Positions 9,491 through 38,860 of a DNA stretch of 64,000 nt are shown here, piece by piece. Position numbers and translations under genes: made by a program. The DNA is from Parapedobacter tibetensis (lineage in GTDB: Bacteria > Bacteroidota > Bacteroidia > Sphingobacteriales > Sphingobacteriaceae). The DNA is taken from assembly GCF_024704835.1 (NCBI RefSeq), contig NZ_JAMXBE010000015.1:1-64000 (forward strand), written 5' to 3'. Each line of letters starts with the position of its first letter. Position 1 is the first letter of the stretch. The notes below the pieces were generated by a model. It was not told where the DNA came from. It did not search any database and worked only from the letters and a program-made list of their open reading frames with translations.

Positions 9491-11833
9491 ATGAAGCTAC
9501 GCTACACTTTTGTCGGTATCCTAACCCTCCTTTCCGCCTTACTGCTTGCACAAACTCCCCAGAGCAAACTGGTGGGCCACATTGCAGATATCAATGGATC
9601 CGCCTTGGCAGGAGCAACGGTTCAACTCAACGGTACTACAGGCAGCAGCGGATTAAAGGTCGAAACCAACGCCAACGGCGATTTTTTACTTGAATTATCT
9701 CCCGACGAATACAGTGTGAAGTGCAGTCATATCGGTTACCGGTCAACCCATGAGGACATCCGCCTAATTGCTGACAGTACCATACATATGGAGGTAACGC
9801 TGGCACAGGATGTGACACTCGATGAAGTGGTCGTTACCGCTGGCCGCATCGCGGAAAGTATCGATGAAGTCCCATCATCTATCAGCATACTGAATGCGAA
9901 GCAAGTCCAGGAGCAGGCCAACATCAACCCCTCGGTTGCTTCCATCCTCGGAAATACCATCCCCGGACTTGGGACAGGCACCAACAAAGCCACCAATAGC
10001 GGGCAGACACTTCGGGGCCGACAGGTATTGGTGCTCATCGACGGCGTTCCGCAATCGACCCCTTTAATGAACGGCAGCAGGGACATCCGAACGCTTGATC
10101 CCGCGGTAATTGAACGCGTGGAAGTCATCAAGGGTGCAACCTCCATTTATGGTAATGGATCTGGCGGAGGCATCATCAACTTCATTACGAAACAACCGGA
10201 TTCGGGCAAGTCTTTCGGGGGAACAAGTAGTATCGGCACCGGTGGTAACCTCGCCCATCCGTCGAATACCATGGGTTACCGGTTTTCTCAATTGTTTACC
10301 GGTACGGTCAATAAGTTTTCCTATGTATTCAGTGGCACCTATAACTATACTGGTGTATTAAAAGATGCCAAGGGCAACGTAAATGCACAGGCAGATGGCC
10401 TGGGCGAAAATTCATTGTATAATATTTTCACTAAACTGGGGTACAGGCCAAACGACAAGAGCGCGTTTATGGTTTCTTACAACCTGTTTCGGAGCGTCCA
10501 GCACAGTGATTACATCAATACGGTTGGCAAATATGGCGAAGACCCCTCCATCGGCGTAAAGGGTGAAAATCTGGGTGAGTCCGCCGGAACACCGTACAAT
10601 CATAACATATTGGTGTCATATCAGCACAGTGCCCTCCCCTACAACACCGTGCTTGATGCGACGGCTTACTATAATCGATTTGTTTCCATGAATCGCTATG
10701 TAGAAAACGGTACGGCGTGGTACGGACCGGGGCAAACAAAGATCCAGTCGTTTAAAAAAGGCATTCGTGTAAACCTCCATACCCCCTGGAAAATGAGCGA
10801 TCGATTCGGCGTTGAATTCACCTATGGGTTGGACTTATTAAATGACCTTACGAACCAAATATTGACCGATGGACGTGTGTACATACCAGACATGGACATG
10901 GTTAACCTCGCGCCCTATGCGCAACTAAAATTCGATCTATGGGACAATTTGGTGCTCAAGGGCGGCTTACGCTATGAAAATGCCAGCGTAAAGGTGCAGG
11001 ATTTCAGCACCATCGCAACAGGACCGAATGGCGAAGGTAGCGTGGCCATCAAAGGTGGAACGATACCGTACCATGCTACCATGTTCAATGCAGGCCTGCG
11101 TTATAATAGGTATGCCGTTTTTAACCCCTTCGTTAGCTTTTCGCAAGGGTTTGCCATCAACGAACTGGGACGTATCCTGCGACGTGCGCAAGAAAACACG
11201 CTGGATCAAATTGAAACCGATCCGATTATCACCAACAACTATGAAGTGGGCTTCAGCAGCCGTATCCGCATGTTCCATTTTACAGCGGCTTACTACATTA
11301 GCACATCAAAATTCGGCGCCAACCTGGTGGACGTAGGCGGTTATTTGACGGCACAGCGCGAACCTGAACATGTTCAGGGCTATGAAGTAACCGCCGATGC
11401 GTATCTCGATGAAAAATGGACGACCGGCGCCAGCTATTCGTTTGTAGAGGGCAAAGCCGAACAGGATGACGGCACCAAGGTATACCTAAACGGTATCCGT
11501 ATCGCTCCGCTAAAGGCAACGGCGTACCTGGCTTTCCGCCCGTCGTCGATTACCGAGCTGAAACTCAACTGGGTCTATACCGGAAGCAGGGACCGGTTTG
11601 AGCCCCGTGCGAATGGTACCTATGCCAATAGCGAAGGTCCGATAACATCCGTAAACCTGCTCAATTTCTCGGCCATGTACCGCATCAGCAGCAAGATCCT
11701 GATTGGATTGGGTGTCGAAAACCTGCTGAATACAGCGTATTACCCCGTGGTGAGCCAATACCGGGGCATCGATGCGGAATACGTGCGTGGCAACGGCGCA
11801 TCTGTGAACGTGAACCTATCTTACAGTTTCTGA
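9491..11833 (+). CDS. TonB-dependent outer-membrane receptor, probable iron/siderophore uptake
   Basis: A 780-residue protein from ATG 9491 (MKLRYTFVG), which has AGG just ahead; the frame extends to 9458 but without a better start. It has a signal peptide (residues 1-20), a carboxypeptidase-regulatory-like domain (about 25-105), a plug with VVVTAGRIAESIDEVPSSIS, GQTLRGRQVLVLIDGVPQS and VIERVEVIKGATSIYGNGSGGGIINF, then a 22-strand-type barrel ending in aromatic SYSF. This architecture is that of FecA/FhuE-like receptors that take up ferric siderophores with TonB energy. The PepSY membrane protein 4 bases downstream supports iron uptake. The ligand is not deducible. Confidence 0.9.
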   Translation: MKLRYTFVGILTLLSALLLAQTPQSKLVGHIADINGSALAGATVQLNGTTGSSGLKVETNANGDFLLELSPDEYSVKCSHIGYRSTHEDIRLIADSTIHMEVTLAQDVTLDEVVVTAGRIAESIDEVPSSISILNAKQVQEQANINPSVASILGNTIPGLGTGTNKATNSGQTLRGRQVLVLIDGVPQSTPLMNGSRDIRTLDPAVIERVEVIKGATSIYGNGSGGGIINFITKQPDSGKSFGGTSSIGTGGNLAHPSNTMGYRFSQLFTGTVNKFSYVFSGTYNYTGVLKDAKGNVNAQADGLGENSLYNIFTKLGYRPNDKSAFMVSYNLFRSVQHSDYINTVGKYGEDPSIGVKGENLGESAGTPYNHNILVSYQHSALPYNTVLDATAYYNRFVSMNRYVENGTAWYGPGQTKIQSFKKGIRVNLHTPWKMSDRFGVEFTYGLDLLNDLTNQILTDGRVYIPDMDMVNLAPYAQLKFDLWDNLVLKGGLRYENASVKVQDFSTIATGPNGEGSVAIKGGTIPYHATMFNAGLRYNRYAVFNPFVSFSQGFAINELGRILRRAQENTLDQIETDPIITNNYEVGFSSRIRMFHFTAAYYISTSKFGANLVDVGGYLTAQREPEHVQGYEVTADAYLDEKWTTGASYSFVEGKAEQDDGTKVYLNGIRIAPLKATAYLAFRPSSITELKLNWVYTGSRDRFEPRANGTYANSEGPITSVNLLNFSAMYRISSKILIGLGVENLLNTAYYPVVSQYRGIDAEYVRGNGASVNVNLSYSF

Positions 11834-15383: not shown

Positions 15384-17165
15384 ATGCCGTTCCATTACGT
15401 TATTATATATTGCTTTGTATCTATCGTTCTTCTTGCTTTTTGCCCTATCGCCGTAGCCCAGCTCCCTACCAAACCATCCAATGAGCAAGCAGCTACGATT
15501 GACAGCTTTTATCATGAAGGCAGCCAGCTGTTGTTAAGCGGAGACCTGGATGCGGCTCATCAGCGGTTCAGCGAAGGATTATCGGTCGCTAAAACGCAAG
15601 GGGATTCCCTAAACATCGGTCGGTTTTACCACGGATTAGGCACCGTGCTGCAGCACCAGCAGGCCTATGAAGAGGCCTTGCTCCATTATCACAAAAGTAT
15701 AGCGTTTATCCAGGAGGACCAATATCCTGACGAAGTGGGAAAGACCTATGGAAACCTCGGCGCGCTCTATGCCCAGCAAAAGGATTTTCAGCATGCAAGG
15801 CAGTACCTTGAGCGTGCATTGGCTACGATAAAAGAAGAAAATGTCAGGCGGCTCCATATCATGGCCAACCTTGCTGCACTATACCTTGACCAAGGCGATT
15901 TGGAACAAGCTGAATCCCTAACCCTTGAAGCGATTACATCGGCAAAAACACTTAACCAGGCGTATATTGAAGCCACTCTATACACCAACCTAAGTAAATT
16001 ATACACGGAAACAAACCAGTGGAAACGGGCCATTCCGGCCGGCGAGCGGGCTTTGCACATCAAGGATAGTATTAAACAGGGCAGTTTGGTGGCACCCCGT
16101 GTTAATATCGGGTATGCGTATGAAAACCTAGGAGCACTTGACACGGCCATGAAGTACTACCACGATGCGCTGGGAGATGCCTCTGGAACGGAACTGTTGG
16201 GGGTATTGCAGAACCTGAAACGCATTGCTAAAAAAGTCGGGAATCTACGCGAATCACTGCGCTATTATGATCGCTATGACCAGGTAAAAGACTCCATCGC
16301 AGAACTGAATCGCCAGGCGCAGGTAGCCGAACTCACGGAAAAATACGAATCGAAACAAAAGCAGGGCGAAATCGACCATCTACAAGCTGAAAGTAAATTG
16401 CAAGGAAAATTGATTGCCCGGCAACGGGTTTTAGTTGGTATTTCGTTGGCTTTGCTCCTGCTGTTCGCTGTATTGGTGTATGTATGGCTCAAACAAAACA
16501 AGACGCGGCAGGCATTGGAAAAATCCAAGATGCAACAGCGGTTTCTCCTTACCCAGCTCAATCCCCATTTCATTTTCAATGCGCTGCAGAGTGTACAAAG
16601 CTACATTTTCAAAAACAAACCGGAAACTTCCATGGAATACTTGAACAGCTTTGCCAAGTTGATCCGGTCTGTTCTGGAGCATTCAGACCACGACACCATT
16701 TCCCTGGAAGAAGAAATGGAAATGATCCGCAATTTTTTGCACCTGCAGCAACTCAACCATCAAAATGACTTTACGTATGAAATTACACCTGGTGAACCCC
16801 CTGCGGAGCTAGATGGCCTCCATATACCGGCTATGTTAGTCCAGCCCTTTGTAGAAAATGCGGTAATCCATGGGATGCGAGACGTGCCTGAAGGAAAAAT
16901 ATCCGTTAATTTTAAACAAGAGGAAGGCCTATTAAAGATCACGATCTGCGATAATGGCAAGGGCATACAGCTGCAAAAAAGACAAAAGGCCAATGCCCTA
17001 CACCGTTCCATGGGGACGGAGATCATCCATAAAAGAATACGTGAATTCAACAAGGTGAATGAACGGAAAATAAACGTGCAGATAACGCCGTTTAGGGAGC
17101 ATCCGGAGTTTCCTGGCACGAAGGTGGTGCTGGATATACCGGTTCTAACCTATAAAAATACATGA
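15384..17165 (+). CDS. TPR-linked LytS-type sensor histidine kinase
   Basis: A 593-residue protein. It has a signal peptide (residues 1-26) and an outer TPR region (about 35-310) with repeats such as GRFYHGLGTVLQHQQAYEEA. One membrane helix lies at about 346-368. The cytoplasmic His_kinase (PF06580) block FLLTQLNPHFIFNALQSVQS carries the phosphorylated His, and a HATPase region with FVENAVIHG and DNGKGI follows. It phosphorylates a LytTR response regulator, here encoded directly downstream with a 4-base overlap. Confidence 0.92.
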   Translation: MPFHYVIIYCFVSIVLLAFCPIAVAQLPTKPSNEQAATIDSFYHEGSQLLLSGDLDAAHQRFSEGLSVAKTQGDSLNIGRFYHGLGTVLQHQQAYEEALLHYHKSIAFIQEDQYPDEVGKTYGNLGALYAQQKDFQHARQYLERALATIKEENVRRLHIMANLAALYLDQGDLEQAESLTLEAITSAKTLNQAYIEATLYTNLSKLYTETNQWKRAIPAGERALHIKDSIKQGSLVAPRVNIGYAYENLGALDTAMKYYHDALGDASGTELLGVLQNLKRIAKKVGNLRESLRYYDRYDQVKDSIAELNRQAQVAELTEKYESKQKQGEIDHLQAESKLQGKLIARQRVLVGISLALLLLFAVLVYVWLKQNKTRQALEKSKMQQRFLLTQLNPHFIFNALQSVQSYIFKNKPETSMEYLNSFAKLIRSVLEHSDHDTISLEEEMEMIRNFLHLQQLNHQNDFTYEITPGEPPAELDGLHIPAMLVQPFVENAVIHGMRDVPEGKISVNFKQEEGLLKITICDNGKGIQLQKRQKANALHRSMGTEIIHKRIREFNKVNERKINVQITPFREHPEFPGTKVVLDIPVLTYKNT

Positions 17166-17947
17166 TGAATAACCCAAGGCCAGATAAACCGTTATCCTGT
17201 CTCCTCGTAGAGGATGATCCACAATCCATGGAATACATGGTTGGTATTCTACAAGCCCATGCTCATAGCTTAGCTTGCTATCAAGCCAAAACCCTTAAAG
17301 AAGCCGAAGCATTGTATGCCGCTCATGATCCGAGGCTACTTATATTGGATATCAATCTTCCGGACGGGGATTCCTTTGAACTGCTAGCCAATATCACTGA
17401 GCAACAAGAAGCGCCCATTCCTTTTAAAGTCATCTTCACTACCGCCTTTGCCAACTATGCTGTAGAGGCGTTTAAAATCAGCGCACTCGATTACCTACTG
17501 AAACCGTTTACCCCCCATGAATTGACAACAGCCGTAGACAAGGCGTTGATTGACTTGGACATGGAACAATACCGACAACAACTCGATGCTTTTTTCCACA
17601 ACCAGCAACAAGAAGACCCACAACATAAGAAAATCGTACTCAAAAGTGTGGACAATATCCATGTGGTAAAGATTCCTGAAATCAGTCAGGCGGTGGCCGA
17701 CAATAATTATACGGTGTTCCATTTGATTGACGGTCGCACCATAACCGTTTCCCTGCCCTTGAAATCATACGAACAAAAACTTTCACCTTGCGGCTTTATG
17801 CGTGTCCACCAATCGCATTTGGTCAACCTCAGCCATATCAAAACCTTCCAACGAAAAAACAACATGTTGATTTTGGAAAACGGCATCGCCATACCGGTTT
17901 CCCTTAATAAAAGACCATTGCTACTGGATTACCTAAACACCTTATAA
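17162..17947 (+). CDS. LytTR family response regulator
   Basis: A 261-residue protein with an N-terminal receiver (about residues 12-125). Its acidic pair is in LLVEDDPQS, the phosphoacceptor Asp is in LLILDINLPDGDSFELL, and the lysine is in DYLLKPF. The C-terminal LytTR DNA-binding domain contains FMRVHQSHLVNLSHIKTF. It overlaps the kinase gene by 4 bases (ATGA), so the two are translationally coupled. Either ATG 17162 or 17165 could be used. Its targets are unknown; the secreted protein 142 bases downstream is one candidate. Confidence 0.93.
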   Translation: MMNNPRPDKPLSCLLVEDDPQSMEYMVGILQAHAHSLACYQAKTLKEAEALYAAHDPRLLILDINLPDGDSFELLANITEQQEAPIPFKVIFTTAFANYAVEAFKISALDYLLKPFTPHELTTAVDKALIDLDMEQYRQQLDAFFHNQQQEDPQHKKIVLKSVDNIHVVKIPEISQAVADNNYTVFHLIDGRTITVSLPLKSYEQKLSPCGFMRVHQSHLVNLSHIKTFQRKNNMLILENGIAIPVSLNKRPLLLDYLNTL

Positions 17948-31759: not shown

Positions 31760-31897
31760 GCACCAAAGAAAAACTCGTATGGTACCTGCATAAAACTGGC
31801 AGGATTGAGCAATCAGATAAAGGAATACCGGGCTGTATTTAATGCATGCGTGGAGGCCTTTATCGCCAGCATCCCCGAAGCGCCTTCAGGTCATTAA
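31760..31897 (+). pseudogene. Remnant of a second precursor peptide (C-terminal part)
   Basis: A 45-codon open stretch runs from after TAG 31757-31759 to TAA 31895-31897 and has no ATG. Its end reads VEAFIASIPEAPSGH. The peptide encoded at 35702-35854 ends IDAWIETLPEAPR. The shared pattern is [VI][ED]A[FW]I[AE][ST][IL]PEAP, in both cases at the C-terminus, and both genes are followed by a strong terminator. No double-glycine leader can be found in frame, so the start has been lost or shifted. It lies just beyond the 3' end of the peptide-exporter gene and points toward it. Confidence 0.55.
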
Positions 31898-31932
31898 CCC
31901 CAAGGGGTTCGGTAATCGCGCACATGCGATTG

Positions 31933-31970
31933 ATCCCGGTGTGGCCATGGCCACACCGGGATTTTTTGTT
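31933..31970. terminator. Strong bidirectional terminator
   Basis: A perfect 30-base palindrome at 31933-31962 (arm ATCCCGGTGTGGCCA) is followed by TTTTTT on the plus strand. It lies between the converging peptide remnant and transporter gene and could end transcription from both. Confidence 0.8.
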
Positions 31971-31994
31971 AGCGTCCGTCCGTGATGCACGTGC

Positions 31995-34166
31995 CTAGGC
32001 CGGTACCTCTTCCCCCAGATTCAGTGTTTGCTGGCGGCAAAGTTCGTAATATGCCCCTTTCGCTTTCAGCAAGTCCGCATGCGTCCCCTCTTCGATTACC
32101 GCTCCGGCCTGCATGACCACGATGTTGTCGGCTAATGCCACTGTGCTCAGTCGATGGGCAATGAGGACGATGGTTTTCCCCCCGTTGCGCATGGTGGCTA
32201 TGGCCTGTTGGATGTATTGCTCGGCAGCCGGGTCGAGCGCTGAGGTTGCCTCATCCAAGATCAGTATCTCAGGGTTGCGGTACATAGCCCGTGCAATAGC
32301 CAGGCGCTGTCGCTGCCCGCCCGATAAGGTTGCGCCGTTCTCCCCGATGTAGGTATGGAAACCGGCCGGCAACTTTTCGATGAAATCCATCATGCCCAGC
32401 GCGGCACACACTGACATCACGCGGTTCATATCGGGTTCGAAATCACCCACGGCGATATTTTCGACAACATTACCTGCGAAAAGGTCGATTTGCTGCGGCA
32501 CCACGCTCACCACACGGCGCAAGCTCTCGTGGCTGAGGTAGCGGATATCCAAATTCCCGATGGTGATACTTCCCGCTTTTATGGGGTAAATCCCCTGCAA
32601 GATCGACAGGAGTGTGGTCTTCCCCGATCCGCTTTCGCCTACCACGGCGGTGATCTTGCCCTGGGGGATCAGCAGGTTGAGCTGCTCGAAAACGCTCACC
32701 TGCGAACCGTAGCGGAAGCTCACCTCTTTAAAACGGATATCGCCCACCAGTTCCCGGCTCAGTTCGGCCTTTTTCCCCGTCTCCTCCCGCTCCAGGTCCA
32801 TGATCTCGAACAAACGGTCGGCGGCGATCAATGCATCCTGTATCGTCCGGTTCATACCGATCAAGCTACTGACCGGGGTGGTAAAATAGCCGATGATGGC
32901 GTAAAAGGATAACAGCTCGCCCGGGGTAATGCGGGTATCCAGCACAAATCCCGCGCCCACCCACAGCAGGATGATGGTGAACAAACCGGTGGCGAAGCTA
33001 CCCGAATTGCCGATCCAAAGGGCATTCACCGACGAACGGTACACCGTACCCAGAAAGCGTATGAAGCGGTTTTCCGTCTTCATGTTGGCATAGTCTTCCA
33101 GTCCGAAACGCTTCACCGTCCCCACGGCATTCACCGACTCCACCAGTTGCGACTCCAATGCAGCCGAGTGTTCCATGACCTTGCGCTGGGTCTTCCTGTT
33201 CACCTTATTGGAAAAGAAGTAAATCAGCGCATACAACGGTACCACCAGGAGCATCACCAGCGCCAGCTTCCAGTAATAGCTGAACATCAATGCGAATGAA
33301 AAGACGATGATGAAGATATTCACAGCGAACGTAATCAGCACATCATTGATGAAGAGCCTGATCTTCATCGCGTCATTGATCCGGGAAATGATCTCGCCTG
33401 TACGCATCGTATCAAAAAAGCGCTGGGGCAGCCTGAGCAGGTGTTTGTAATAGCCGAGAATGAGCCGTGCATCTATCTGCTGGCCGGTCTTGATGGTAAG
33501 GAGCGTCTTTGCATGATTGATAAAGGTCTGCAGAAACAACAGGGCTATCATCACTACCCCCATCAGGTTCAACAAATTGCGGTTGGCGCCCGGGATAACC
33601 TGGTCCACAATTTTCTGCAGGAATATCGACGTGGCCAACCCCAGCACCGTATAGCATACCGCCCCCACCAGCACCTGCACCAACACACTGCGGTGGGGAC
33701 GCAGCAAAAACCAAAGCCTGCTCGCAATGGGTATTTTTTCGTTCCCCGCCTTGAATTGCTCATTTGGCGCCAACAAGAGCAGTACGCCGGTCCACCGTTC
33801 CTTGAAATCCGCATGCCTGAGTTGATGCATGCGTCCATCTGCCGGATCCATCACCTCGATGGCAGTTTTCGTCACCCGGTAAACCACCACGAAATGATGC
33901 AACCCTTCTCCCACCACCACATGGGCGATGGCCGGTAGTGGCACTTGGGACAGGCTTTCCCACGGGCATTTCACCCCTTTGGCAGCGAAGCCCAACTGCT
34001 CGGCCGCCTCGATCAGTCCCAGTACGTTCGTTCCCTTTTTGTCGGTCGATGCATACTGGCGGATACGGGCGATGGGCAGCTTTAGCCGGTAATGGCCGGC
34101 CACTGACGCCAGACAGGCTGCCCCGCAATCGGTCATATCGTGTTGCTTAACGTTAATCTTTGCCAT
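31995..34166 (-). CDS. Peptidase-containing ABC transporter (C39 domain, bacteriocin/peptide exporter)
   Basis: A 723-residue protein starting at ATG 34166 (MAKINVKQHDMTDCGAAC). The N-terminal C39 cysteine peptidase (about 1-130) has its catalytic Cys in DMTDCGAACLAS, His in HHFVVVYRV and Asp in VMDPADG. Six membrane helices follow (about 160-440), then an ATPase with Walker A GESGSGKTT, signature LSGGQRQR and Walker B ILILDEATSALD. This class cuts leaders after Gly-Gly and exports the mature peptide. The HlyD gene lies 13 bases upstream on the same strand. The divergent double-glycine peptide at 35702 is the natural substrate. Confidence 0.95.
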   Translation of the reverse strand: MAKINVKQHDMTDCGAACLASVAGHYRLKLPIARIRQYASTDKKGTNVLGLIEAAEQLGFAAKGVKCPWESLSQVPLPAIAHVVVGEGLHHFVVVYRVTKTAIEVMDPADGRMHQLRHADFKERWTGVLLLLAPNEQFKAGNEKIPIASRLWFLLRPHRSVLVQVLVGAVCYTVLGLATSIFLQKIVDQVIPGANRNLLNLMGVVMIALLFLQTFINHAKTLLTIKTGQQIDARLILGYYKHLLRLPQRFFDTMRTGEIISRINDAMKIRLFINDVLITFAVNIFIIVFSFALMFSYYWKLALVMLLVVPLYALIYFFSNKVNRKTQRKVMEHSAALESQLVESVNAVGTVKRFGLEDYANMKTENRFIRFLGTVYRSSVNALWIGNSGSFATGLFTIILLWVGAGFVLDTRITPGELLSFYAIIGYFTTPVSSLIGMNRTIQDALIAADRLFEIMDLEREETGKKAELSRELVGDIRFKEVSFRYGSQVSVFEQLNLLIPQGKITAVVGESGSGKTTLLSILQGIYPIKAGSITIGNLDIRYLSHESLRRVVSVVPQQIDLFAGNVVENIAVGDFEPDMNRVMSVCAALGMMDFIEKLPAGFHTYIGENGATLSGGQRQRLAIARAMYRNPEILILDEATSALDPAAEQYIQQAIATMRNGGKTIVLIAHRLSTVALADNIVVMQAGAVIEEGTHADLLKAKGAYYELCRQQTLNLGEEVPA

Positions 34167-34179
34167 AAACACAAATCAT

Positions 34180-35337
34180 TTACAGGTTAGGGTTGAGCCA
34201 GTCATCCGCCTTGTCATATAAGAGTTGGAAAAGCGTACGCTCGGCCACTTCGAAACGCGCCCGGAAACTCATCCCCTTCTTGAGCTTACCGGCGTATCCG
34301 TTGGGTAAATACAGCACATGCTTATCCAGTTGGCACCGCACCAGAAAGGCAGGTGCTTGATGCTGGCTTACCGCGACATCGTCCGAGATATCGATGATAT
34401 GTCCATCTACCATTCCCCATTGGTTGTAGTTGAAGGCATCGATCTGGAACCGCACCGGCATGCCCTTGGCCAGCAAGCCGATATCCTTGGGCGACACCCT
34501 CACTTCGGCCACCAAACCCGAGTCGGGTGAAATTTCCGCAAGGGTTTCCCCTATGGCCGCGAAACTGCCCGGCAGCACACCATTGAAGTTTTGTATCGTT
34601 CCGTCCACCGGCGCCCGTACCGAATAAAGTTCCTTCTCCTTGTCGAGCTGCTGTTTTTGGGCAACAGACTCCCGGAGTTCCAGCTGCAGCCGGTTCAGCT
34701 CGGTTTGCCATTGGCTCATCTGCTTATCGTACAACAGGTGCCGTTGCTTCCTGGTCTTTTCCAGCTCATACACCTCCCGGTCAAACTCGGCATTGGATAT
34801 CATCTTTTTATCATACATGCTTTTCTGGCGGTCGTGGCGCGTTTGTACCTGCGCTAGTTCCAGCTGCGCTTCGGCCAGCTGCTGCTTGAACAGGTGGTAT
34901 TGTTGCTCGTAAAGCGGGGTGGCCAGCGACACCGGCGGAGGCTCCTCGGCCATGGGAACGGCGACCAGCTGCTGCAAATCACCCAGCCGCTGCCTGAGCT
35001 CGCGTTGCCGGTCGCTGGCATACCCTCCCTGATTTTCCAAGATATCCGCTTCGAGCGTAAACAGCAGCGTCCCGGCCTTGACATGTTGGTTTTCGGTCAC
35101 TAATACGTTTTCAAGCCTCCCGCTGACGGGCGACTTCACCATGTTGCGCTCGTGGATGGGCCTTACGATGCCTTCGCCGCCCACACTCACCGCCACCCGG
35201 ATAAAAAACAAGGAAACGAAGCCCAGGATCAGGAACAGCAATACCGCCTGGTAGACCACCTTTGTCCGTGTATGGTGCTGCTGGAAATGGTTTTCGACCG
35301 TGAACTCCATGATTTCGGTCGGGAAAATTCGGTTCAT
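34180..35337 (-). CDS. HlyD family membrane-fusion protein
   Basis: A 385-residue adaptor from ATG 35337 (MNRIFPTEIMEF); a TTG at 35343 is less likely. A short cytoplasmic start precedes one membrane helix (about 28-48, AVLLFLILGFVSLFFIRVAV). A biotinyl-lipoyl half-domain (GRLENVLVTENQHVKAGTLL), a long coiled coil (about 105-235) and a second lipoyl half with SVRAPVDGTIQN follow. It bridges the ABC exporter to an outer-membrane TolC-type channel. No TolC gene is nearby. It forms one operon with the C39 transporter. Confidence 0.92.
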   Translation of the reverse strand: MNRIFPTEIMEFTVENHFQQHHTRTKVVYQAVLLFLILGFVSLFFIRVAVSVGGEGIVRPIHERNMVKSPVSGRLENVLVTENQHVKAGTLLFTLEADILENQGGYASDRQRELRQRLGDLQQLVAVPMAEEPPPVSLATPLYEQQYHLFKQQLAEAQLELAQVQTRHDRQKSMYDKKMISNAEFDREVYELEKTRKQRHLLYDKQMSQWQTELNRLQLELRESVAQKQQLDKEKELYSVRAPVDGTIQNFNGVLPGSFAAIGETLAEISPDSGLVAEVRVSPKDIGLLAKGMPVRFQIDAFNYNQWGMVDGHIIDISDDVAVSQHQAPAFLVRCQLDKHVLYLPNGYAGKLKKGMSFRARFEVAERTLFQLLYDKADDWLNPNL

Positions 35338-35495
35338 TCGCAAATAATTTAATCCTCAGTTGCCTCATGGAACCTGCATTTTCATCGGCACTTTTTGCTT
35401 TCATCGGTGATGAAGCTTGCGTTCGCCTCCGGCTTCCGCAGGTTTCATCCCGCTAAAATAGGTGCCGTTAGGGCTTCCATAAAAATCTTCCCCCA

Positions 35496-35607
35496 ATCCG
35501 TCTGCATCGGGTTACTTTCCGTCCGGCGTAAAAAAGTATCCGTTTATCCGCAGTTCTTGGCTTCAACGGCAGTGGTCGGAACGGATACTAACCCGATGCA
35601 TGCGGAT
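35496..35607. repeat. Nested inverted repeats upstream of the peptide gene
   Basis: Outer arms at 35496-35514 and 35589-35607 pair at 17 of 19 positions. Inner arms GTATCCGTT (35536-35544) and AACGGATAC (35580-35588) pair perfectly. The whole could fold as a branched hairpin of about 110 bases. It lies in the 364-base gap between the divergent HlyD and peptide genes, which otherwise shows no convincing gene. A regulatory leader or a mobile-element scar are both possible. Confidence 0.5.
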
Positions 35608-35701
35608 ATGGGTTCCTCCATGCAATCCGCTGTTACAAGCCCTATGTTAGAACTGTTGTACAACAATGTGTTTATTTTTTAACCTTTAAAATTCAAAAAC
35701 T

Positions 35702-35854
35702 ATGAATTTAGAAAATTTAAATGTCCAGGCGCTCACAGAACGTGAGGCCATGGAAACGACAGGAGGCAATTTAACGTCCTGGATTGTTACCCCTGACATG
35801 ATGTGGGCGATTATCGATGCCTGGATCGAGACCCTTCCTGAAGCTCCCAGGTAG
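35702..35854 (+). CDS. Double-glycine leader precursor peptide (bacteriocin-like or signal peptide)
   Basis: A 50-residue peptide that starts at ATG 35702 after an A-rich stretch. The leader (residues 1-22) begins MNLENLNVQALTE and ends EAMETTGG, with the spaced hydrophobics L6, V8, L11 and M17 typical of ComC/bacteriocin leaders read by C39 peptidases. Cleavage after GG would release 28 residues, from NLTSWIVTPD to WIETLPEAPR. The product is acidic with four Trp/Ile-rich turns and no Cys, so no disulfide or lanthionine is expected. It is divergent from the C39 exporter operon and is followed 22 bases later by a terminator. No immunity or modification gene is recognised nearby. Confidence 0.85.
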   Translation: MNLENLNVQALTEREAMETTGGNLTSWIVTPDMMWAIIDAWIETLPEAPR

Positions 35855-35875
35855 TTGATGACGGGGTAGTCAGAG

Positions 35876-35907
35876 AAAGCCCTTGTCCATACGGCACAAG
35901 GGCTTTT
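35876..35907 (+). terminator. Rho-independent terminator of the peptide gene
   Basis: AGCCCTTGT (35878-35886) pairs with ACAAGGGCT (35896-35904), flanked by AA and TTT. Confidence 0.8.
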
Positions 35908-36023: not shown

Positions 36024-36166
36024 TCACCTCGCCCGTTCGTTTTCCTGCGCGCCCGTCGACCGGCTTCGGTAGGTGGATGTGGTAAGTTTACCGAAATTGT
36101 AAGTGACGATTACGCCAAAATTATTCTGGGTATAATCCCTCCGGTAATAGATATCCGTTTGCAGCC
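36024..36166 (-). pseudogene. C-terminal fragment of an outer-membrane beta-barrel protein
   Basis: A minus-strand frame ending at TGA 36024-36026 reads LQTDIYYRRDYTQNNFGVIV and TYNFGKLTTSTYRSRST without a start. Alternating aromatic residues and the closing YNFGKL are typical of the last strands of Bacteroidota barrel proteins of the TonB-receptor or PF14905 kind. The reading breaks off near 36166, where a truncated plus-strand gene begins, so a deletion probably joined two broken genes here. Confidence 0.55.
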
Positions 36167-36461
36167 GATGGGGAATGGCAGACTGTTCTTACCCATAAAA
36201 GCAGCCATCAGAAAGCAAATAGGCAAACAGGCGGGTGATTTCGTGAATGTGGTTTTATTCAAAGACAGCGCGCCTTTGGAAATCCCGGATGAGCTTGTCA
36301 TGTGCTTATCCGACGAGCCAACTGCTTACGAGAAATTCAAGCAACTAACGGAAGGCGAGCAAAAAGCGTTTATCGATTGGATTTATTCCGCGAAAACTGA
36401 CGAGACAAAAGTCAATCGGATTGCAACTACAATAAACAACCTGCTAAACGGGCAAAAATAA
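36159..36461 (+). pseudogene. Truncated DUF1905/YdeI-like protein
   Basis: A 100-residue frame reads QPMGNGRLFLPIKAAIRKQI and then GKQAGDFVNVVLFKD, which is the second half of a DUF1905 domain. The YdeI-type helical tail follows (AYEKFKQLTEGEQKAFIDWI). Full members have about 50-60 more residues at the N-terminus, which are replaced here by a fragment of a barrel gene on the other strand. The ATG at 36159 is therefore probably internal. Whether it is still expressed is unclear. Its 3' end overlaps the convergent DUF1304 gene by 18 bases. Confidence 0.6.
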
Positions 36462-38031: not shown

Positions 38032-38265
38032 TATATTCGTTACGGGGATGGCGAGTTGCCGGTCACTGCCGGACGGATTGCCAAGGCCATGAAAGAATCC
38101 GCAGCGTACGTACACCCGAAGCCTACTCTTGAAGGGATGGAAGCCGCTTATGCGGATTACCAACCGAAAGCTGTCGAGGCAGCCATGGGAGGCCGTGTCT
38201 ACACCACTGCCGAGCGGGAAAGTAAACGTAGGCCGGCAGGCCTGTCGGTTGTTGTGGGCGCATGA
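38032..38265 (+). pseudogene. Fragment of a Bacteroidota hypothetical protein family
   Basis: The frame reads YIRYGDGELPVTAGRIAKAM, then a segment with YVHPKPTLEGMEAAYADY and a GGRVYTTAERESKRR end, before a stop. The order (Y-x-x-AEL start, AM, a FP/HP-P-PTL block, helix, then R-rich helix) is that of a family of about 200 residues often found in Bacteroidota. The stop and the frame change after KRR, with a better continuation in another frame (RQACRLLWAHDKVCF), indicate a frameshifted remnant. Confidence 0.4.
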
Positions 38266-38395
38266 CAAGGTGTGCTTTGGCATGGAAATGGTCCAGTACC
38301 TGTATGCCATGGGCGGCAAAAAAATAGTTATCAAACGTTGTCCAATTTTGAAAACTCGATTGTCATTAGACTTTAACAACAAAAAATTCAAAAAA

Positions 38396-38860
38396 ATGGA
38401 ACAAAGACTAAATTTCAACGAAACAGGAGTAGATGCTATGAAAGCGCTGTACAACATTGCAGTGCACTTGGGTAAATCGACTATCGAGAAAAACCTATTA
38501 GAACTGATTTATTTCAGGGTATCACAAATCAATGGCTGTGCGTTTTGCTTAGATATGCACTCGAAGGATCTACGGGCCAAAGGCGAAACAGAGCAACGCC
38601 TATATGCGCTAAGCAGTTGGCGGGAAACACCCTTCTATTCCGAAAAAGAACAGTCGGCATTAGCTTGGGCAGAAACCCTTACACAACTTAATAACGGGCT
38701 TTTACCTGATGACATCTATGCCGAAGCAGGCAAACATTTTACCGAAAAAGAATTAGTAGATTTGACCTTGGCCGTTACGACGATCAACACCTACAATCGA
38801 TTCAATATTGCCTTTGGTGCACCGGTGGGCACTTACAGGGTTGGACAATTTGGAGGTTAG
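38396..38860 (+). CDS. Carboxymuconolactone decarboxylase / AhpD-like family protein
   Basis: From ATG 38396 (MEQRLNFNETGVDAMKALYN) this is a 154-residue helical protein of the AhpD-like class. The redox/proton-relay motif is in NGCAFCLDMHSKDLR, the CxxC-x3-H arrangement of peroxidase-associated members. The C-terminal half has LVDLTLAVTTINTYNRFNIA. These proteins reduce peroxides or act as disulfide partners. It is followed after 39 bases by the YCII protein and then the sigma factor on the same strand, so it belongs to that stress-type operon. Confidence 0.9.
   Translation: MEQRLNFNETGVDAMKALYNIAVHLGKSTIEKNLLELIYFRVSQINGCAFCLDMHSKDLRAKGETEQRLYALSSWRETPFYSEKEQSALAWAETLTQLNNGLLPDDIYAEAGKHFTEKELVDLTLAVTTINTYNRFNIAFGAPVGTYRVGQFGG

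Follow-up and report, generated by a model that had tools for sequence, protein, structure and literature searches.

A double-glycine peptide gene and its divergent C39 exporter operon share a promoter layout resembling LytTR operators in Parapedobacter tibetensis

Introduction

The stretch of DNA analysed here, hereafter called the window, comprises 64,000 nucleotides of Parapedobacter tibetensis (Bacteroidota; Sphingobacteriaceae; contig NZ_JAMXBE010000015.1, positions 1 to 64,000). It contains a gene for a small precursor peptide with a double-glycine (GG) leader next to a C39 peptidase-containing ATP-binding cassette (ABC) exporter, and the question raised by this locus is how such a peptide is controlled and whether it serves as a bacteriocin or as a signal. 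Most known cases of peptide sensing through C39 export with LytTR control come from Gram-positive bacteria. An initial annotation of the window centred on a C-terminal PEAP motif shared by the precursor and a remnant of a second copy, and missed regulation. Here, we report that what is notable about the locus is the promoter layout shared by peptide and exporter, together with a LytTR regulator and its tetratricopeptide repeat (TPR)-sensor kinase elsewhere in the genome, rather than the PEAP motif.

Results

The 50-residue precursor is real. It is composed of a 22-residue leader, MNLENLNVQALTEREAMETTGG, ending in ETTGG, and a 28-residue core, NLTSWIVTPDMMWAIIDAWIETLPEAPR, ending in IDAWIETLPEAPR, and its gene is divergent from an operon encoding a HlyD-type adaptor and the exporter. 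The identity of the exporter, located between the peptide and the remnant, is confirmed by TIGR01193 and by its Pfam domains (C39, ABC-membrane and ATPase). A GG-leader peptide encoded together with a C39 exporter and an accessory protein is thus found in the window, as it is in the loci of its relatives. By comparison with these relatives, the ATG at 35337 is a likelier start of the adaptor than the listed TTG.

The two promoters of this divergent pair are built alike (Table 1). Direct 9-bp repeats of the form NNCGNWWNN, separated by 12-bp spacers (21-bp period), are followed after 33 bp by a box TANNTT(A/G)G, a layout common to the regions upstream of the exporters and peptides. The TATGTTAG box of the peptide promoter is presumably a Bacteroidota −7 box. 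A palindrome, GTTGTACAAC, lies near the transcription start and is present in L016 and L095 as well.

When 1.70 Mb of sequence was scanned (96 loci, most of them further C39 loci from the window's family), the three-repeat layout was found at 11 distinct places: before the HlyD gene in five of five genomes (P. tibetensis, Sphingobacterium gobiense, Chitinophaga japonensis, Algoriphagus resistens and Algoriphagus sp. AGSA1), before six peptides of the leader family described below, and nowhere else. The reversed sequence contained no match to this layout, and control settings with spacers of 6-18 and distances of 24-42 (n = 246) yielded a mean of 0.016 matches and a maximum of 2. The two-repeat layout has 14 matches in 1.66 Mb, comprising these 11, the window peptide, a second A. 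resistens peptide and one intragenic position. In 605 kb of the P. tibetensis genome (395 kb newly fetched), it precedes the window peptide, the exporter and a second peptide on contig C5 only.

Repeats of 9 bp with 12-bp spacers have been described as the LytTR operators of the plantaricin regulon (consensus TACGTTAAT), where, in the part of the report that deals with them, they stand before the regulatory, transport and peptide operons (PMC2714321); the same geometry is given, in a passage on their operators, for the LytTR systems HdrRM and BrsRM (PMC6193735). Judged by this comparison, the layout found here resembles the LytTR operators of plantaricin-type regulons.

Genes for a response regulator and a kinase (666-721 residues) adjoin the peptide/exporter set in each of the four other genomes. 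The initial annotation recognised no receptor gene, which is true of the window's neighbourhood, where no such pair lies close by; contig C85 of the genome, however, encodes a TPR-sensor kinase and a LytTR regulator of the type that accompanies the set elsewhere. The module is split in P. tibetensis, with the exporter and the PEAP peptide on contig C7 (the window), the second peptide on C5, and kinase and regulator on C85. Pfam recognises LytTR and response-regulator domains in both regulators tested (P. tibetensis and A. resistens) and His_kinase in all three kinases tested. The C85 regulator is 68% identical to that of A. resistens and, in a regulator tree that lacks 4 of the 20 outside regulators, clusters with its counterparts from S. 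gobiense and the two Algoriphagus genomes (support 97/96).

Among 379 genomes of the window's family, 58 carry a regulator at E 1e-65. The closest type is confined to P. tibetensis and S. gobiense (68 and 71% identity; the next reaches 64%), and these are the only two of the 379 with intact peptides. From the 59 matches besides these two, 18 neighbourhoods were inspected (14 in the 57-64% identity band and 4 in the 47-51% band; flanks are shorter at contig ends), which held no GG peptide by the pattern used and one two-repeat match. Because these more distant neighbourhoods are without a GG peptide, only the closest regulator clade goes with the peptides.

Another regulator could bind the repeats, leaving the C85 pair uninvolved. 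A TPR-sensor histidine kinase/LytTR regulator pair is encoded in the window itself (15384-17947), only 18 kb from the peptide, and 14 regulators in the genome match with E values of 1e-10 or lower. However, the regulator of this nearby pair is only 34% identical to the A. resistens regulator, half the value of its C85 counterpart, and it is the C85 regulator that groups with the regulators adjoining the set in other genomes. We regard the involvement of another regulator as very unlikely and retain the C85 pair as the candidate.

The C85 kinase combines a lipoprotein-like start with a sensor of the TPR-superhelix type and, as read from its sequence, one membrane segment. Outside the Algoriphagus pair, the sensors of these kinases are 36-54% alike, versus 60-73% for the kinase domains. 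In a structure model of the S. gobiense kinase, the sensor forms a helical superhelix with a predicted local distance difference test (pLDDT) score of about 61-92 over most of residues 60-400, the kinase part scoring under 50. The first PDB matches of the sensor model are designed TPR proteins and LGN, with RapI, NprR and Rap at ranks 31-50.

The window peptide belongs to a family defined by its leader and promoter. Used as a single query, it found a second member in P. tibetensis (C5:118707, MNLEHLNVAELSSEELVETTGGRYIMPFTDKDVWDEVFVVRNPDFY; 24-residue core RYIMPFTDKDVWDEVFVVRNPDFY), with an IS1595-type transposase gene about 220 bp away, and one in S. gobiense, which was the useful match of a search over 301 genomes that otherwise returned mostly chance matches (E 0.01-0.05). 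The matches in L020 and L023 are different kinds of GG peptide, and the one in G005 is a frame inside another gene; a plasmid search gave one weak match, within an annotated enzyme gene, and PHROGs gave none. A DNA pattern of the shared leader, scanned over the genome contigs of 84,980 species (one genome per species), led to four records, those of S. gobiense, C. japonensis, AGSA1 and A. resistens; in all four, a C39 exporter adjoins the peptides and a HlyD gene adjoins the exporter. With a leader model of ten rows (A3), 11 intact members were identified in five genomes from three orders: four in A. resistens, three in AGSA1, two in P. tibetensis, and one each in S. gobiense, which belongs to the same family as P. 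tibetensis, and C. japonensis. The members of one genome have unlike cores (three in AGSA1, four in A. resistens). One AGSA1 member (L137:11982-12137) stands apart from the other ten by the four cysteines in its core.

The leader family is rare. In the window's family it occurs in 3 of 379 sampled genomes, one of which (G213) has altered copies only (SGR replaces TGG in one, and the other contains a stop) and has neither an exporter at E 1e-150 nor a regulator at E 1e-65. In the families of A. resistens (295 genomes) and C. japonensis (294) and in the genus of AGSA1 (33), only these genomes themselves carry it. Ten members were compared with Pfam and NCBIfam, whose cut-offs do not cover the family. 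Sister C39 exporters accompany another, widespread GG family, MKLQELNxNEMKEINGG, of about 77 residues and often in 2-3 copies, with a Gly/Ser-rich core ending like SFSLGNNIGGSLEGLFQSLTS (e.g., L063, L067, L070, L079, L082 and L084; in P. tibetensis, L014:11707-11943).

A PEAP-ended homologue of the window peptide beside a C39 exporter does exist in a genome of another order, that of A. resistens (MNVEHLNLQELTEHGAVETTGGSVPTWMFTIEWMNAVIDAWIETLPEAPR, 64% identity), where it is likewise divergent from HlyD. The last 13 residues (IDAWIETLPEAPR) are identical in both, with 7 synonymous differences over codons 38-50, which argues that the C-terminus is under purifying selection; 15 of 22 residues are the same in the leader and 4 of 15 in the middle. 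The small secreted-peptide family proposed initially is partly supported, but PEAP marks one subtype of it (2 of 11 intact members). Sphingobacteriaceae, the search range suggested at first, proved too narrow, as A. resistens belongs to the Cyclobacteriaceae.

In a 67-row tree, all five genomes have exporters of a single clade, with a value of 100 in the Shimodaira-Hasegawa-like approximate likelihood-ratio test; this quick tree is without bootstrap and, outside that clade, includes a number of long and doubtful rows. The window exporter is 82-83% identical to those of Algoriphagus versus 75% to that of S. gobiense, and the C5 core differs from one AGSA1 core in 2 of 24 residues only. Because the exporter is nearer to Algoriphagus and the two cores nearly match, horizontal transfer of the gene set between orders is suggested.

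The second PEAP-like end, behind the exporter, was initially called a decayed copy, its pattern being too specific to be chance. For the precursor this specificity holds firmly, since a second genome has the same end; for the remnant, decay is probable. In a C-terminal alignment with the two real peptides, its score of 48 is exceeded, among 65,819 stop-terminated segments, only by theirs. A chance match is rather unlikely: the best unrelated segment scores 44, only 4 below it, and the stretch is without a start codon, an operator-like promoter before it or, in any frame around it, a leader, but the match is in C-terminal register with the stop, about 0.006 matches as good are expected within 5 kb of the gene, and in S. 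gobiense an intact peptide lies at the corresponding convergent position behind the exporter. We therefore keep it as a probable decayed copy.

As to the strong terminators noted behind both, the hairpins 3' of the two stops are each more stable than 200 of 200 shuffles; a simple terminator scan, whose total of 5 sites equals the shuffle mean, lists that of the remnant only.

The peptides might instead be LytTR-regulated bacteriocins, with a kinase that senses something else and varied cores behind one leader serving as an arsenal. LytTR systems do control bacteriocins in streptococci and lactobacilli, as described in parts of PMC6193735 and PMC2714321. Several unlike cores occur per genome, including the one with four cysteines, and 8 of 10 members have leaders similar to the class IIb bacteriocin model TIGR03949, although none reaches a cut-off (best E 0.015). 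However, all 11 cores (10 distinct) have a net charge of 0 to −3. Class II bacteriocins are mostly cationic. No bacteriocin family in Pfam or NCBIfam exceeds its cut-off for the window peptide and the 10 members. In line with the initial annotation, no immunity or modification gene was recognised among the 10 neighbouring open reading frames scanned, although small unknown frames could hide one. The frame at 36159-36461 was set aside as an immunity gene: its OmdA domain carries the Pfam title 'Bacteriocin-protection', but it is probably truncated, since only the end of DUF1905 is present. Given the neutral or acidic cores and the lack of a recognised immunity gene, bacteriocin action, while a fair rival, is neither shown nor favoured, and we consider it unlikely.

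A gene of the carboxymuconolactone decarboxylase family is found near the peptide in both the window (38129-38860) and A. resistens (L135:16062-16538), which may be coincidence.

Table 1. Coordinates of the features discussed. Positions without a prefix refer to the window; C, contig; L, locus.
Feature	Position	Strand	Details
Peptide promoter, two 9-bp repeats	AACGGATAC 35580-35588, TGCGGATAT 35601-35609	+	12 bp apart
Peptide promoter, box TATGTTAG	35643..35650	+	33 bp 3' of second repeat
Exporter promoter, three 9-bp repeats (AACGGATAC, GACGGAAAG, GACGGATTG)	35494..35544	-	12 bp apart
Exporter promoter, box TATTTTAG	35453..35460	-	33 bp 3' of third repeat
Exporter box near HlyD ATG in relatives	L056:6502, L135:15400, L137:15776, L138:13397
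LytTR regulator of P. tibetensis	C85:146800-147570		kinase adjoins
Precursor gene	35702..35854	+	ATG start, 50 residues; homologue in A. resistens, codon comparison
A. resistens homologue	L119:5643-5795 / L135:15644-15796
Terminator-like hairpin 3' of peptide gene	35875..35907	+	folding versus shuffles
C39 peptidase-containing ABC exporter	31995..34172	-	TIGR01193 540 bits (cut-off 524); Pfam; tree clade
HlyD-type adaptor	34180..35343	-	listed TTG start; family match
Probable decayed PEAP-type copy	31760..31897	+	open, ends in VEAFIASIPEAPSGH and a stop; without start, leader, operator
Terminator hairpin 3' of remnant	31932..31963	+	terminator scan; folding versus shuffles
Altered leader-family copies, G213 (contig C48)	L134:9237-9386 and around 9621-9755

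Discussion

The results can be combined in a four-step mechanism. First, going by the protein families, the C39 exporter would cut the leader after GG, and the 28-residue core would leave via HlyD and an outer-membrane channel encoded elsewhere. Second, as the sequence architecture shows, one repeat-box promoter layout is common to the peptide gene and the exporter operon divergent from it. Third, this layout would be the operator of a LytTR response regulator, here that of C85, with the TPR-sensor kinase as its partner. In the fourth and least certain step, the TPR domain would sense a mature peptide of the family, so that exporter and peptides would rise together as peptide accumulates. That the exported peptide is under LytTR control appears likely. 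We are moderately confident in a regulated secreted-peptide module made up of the first three steps, with the fourth as its leading role, while identification of the peptide as the signal of the kinase is plausible, if not quite probable. The TPR sensor, the joint control of peptide and exporter, and the diverging sensors and cores speak for such self-sensing.

Several observations weigh against this proposed mechanism. Because the layout was drawn from these same promoters, its absence elsewhere is the only independent evidence, and its two-repeat form has a further match within the kinase gene of S. gobiense and another in L188. The full layout is not universal among the 11 peptides: three repeats precede six of them and two repeats precede two more, the PEAP peptide of A. 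resistens combines two repeats with a box that deviates, and repeats are missing before two peptides that follow another peptide at about 100 bp. The exporter box of the window lies 115 bp before the likely HlyD start; in four relatives it ends 1-4 bp before the HlyD ATG, so that the transcript would be nearly leaderless. No repeats were found in the five upstream regions of regulator genes, and thus no positive loop onto the sensor is visible; this missing operator and the several unlike peptides per genome speak against self-sensing. As PEAP peptides occur in two of the five genomes only, the window peptide cannot be a general signal. Finally, the regulator of C. japonensis is not part of the clade formed by the other four, the S. 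gobiense kinase model was built from 2 sequences with a mean pLDDT of 60 overall, and TPR folds are common.

More tentatively still, the set may represent a Bacteroidota peptide-sensing regulon of the plantaricin/Com kind, with interchangeable cores, one exporter clade, sensing by a TPR superhelix and LytTR binding to triple repeats, the set moving between orders and the peptides spreading as leader-plus-promoter units with new cores. In the portion of a two-component quorum-sensing survey that lists LytTR pathways, Agr and ComDE are given for bacilli and clostridia, and Agr also for alpha-proteobacteria, not for Bacteroidetes (PMC8895600). Our literature searches found no description of this peptide/exporter/regulator set. 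In P. tibetensis, a member of the Bacteroidota, each component can be named (peptide, exporter, candidate kinase, regulator and operator), which makes the question accessible to a reporter assay using two synthetic peptides. In addition, a constant leader and promoter with changing cores provide a handle for finding further peptides of this kind.

Among known systems, the Bacteroidota GG peptides beside C39 exporters, in clusters for bacteriocins or ribosomally synthesized and post-translationally modified peptides, have the same GG leader, C39 exporter and HlyD, as far as the relevant sections of PMC10352776 and PMC4573289 describe them. Unlike in those clusters, no radical S-adenosylmethionine or other modification gene is recognised here, a LytTR-like promoter is shared, and the leader family lies beyond Pfam and NCBIfam cut-offs. 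Rap/NprR-type receptors, which are soluble, cytosolic and bind re-imported peptides, have the same TPR superhelix and are among the lower-ranking structural matches of the S. gobiense sensor; here, however, the TPR domain is the sensor of a membrane kinase, and the likeness is one of fold only. With the plantaricin (pln) regulon of Lactobacillus plantarum and the streptococcal Com, Blp and Sil systems, the set shares GG-leader peptides and a C39 exporter with an accessory protein; a kinase with a LytTR regulator, as those systems have, adjoins the set in the four other genomes but lies on another contig in P. tibetensis. Kinases of the pln/Com type are polytopic, of the AgrC/ComD type, in contrast to the TPR-sensor kinase with one membrane segment. 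Further differences from pln and Com are three repeats rather than two before the exporter and most peptides, and a Bacteroidota-type promoter box; unlike in pln, the regulator genes have no repeats before them and, in P. tibetensis, the module is split over three contigs. In common with pln, as presented in the operator section of PMC2714321, 9-bp repeats with 12-bp spacers stand before the peptide and transport operons.

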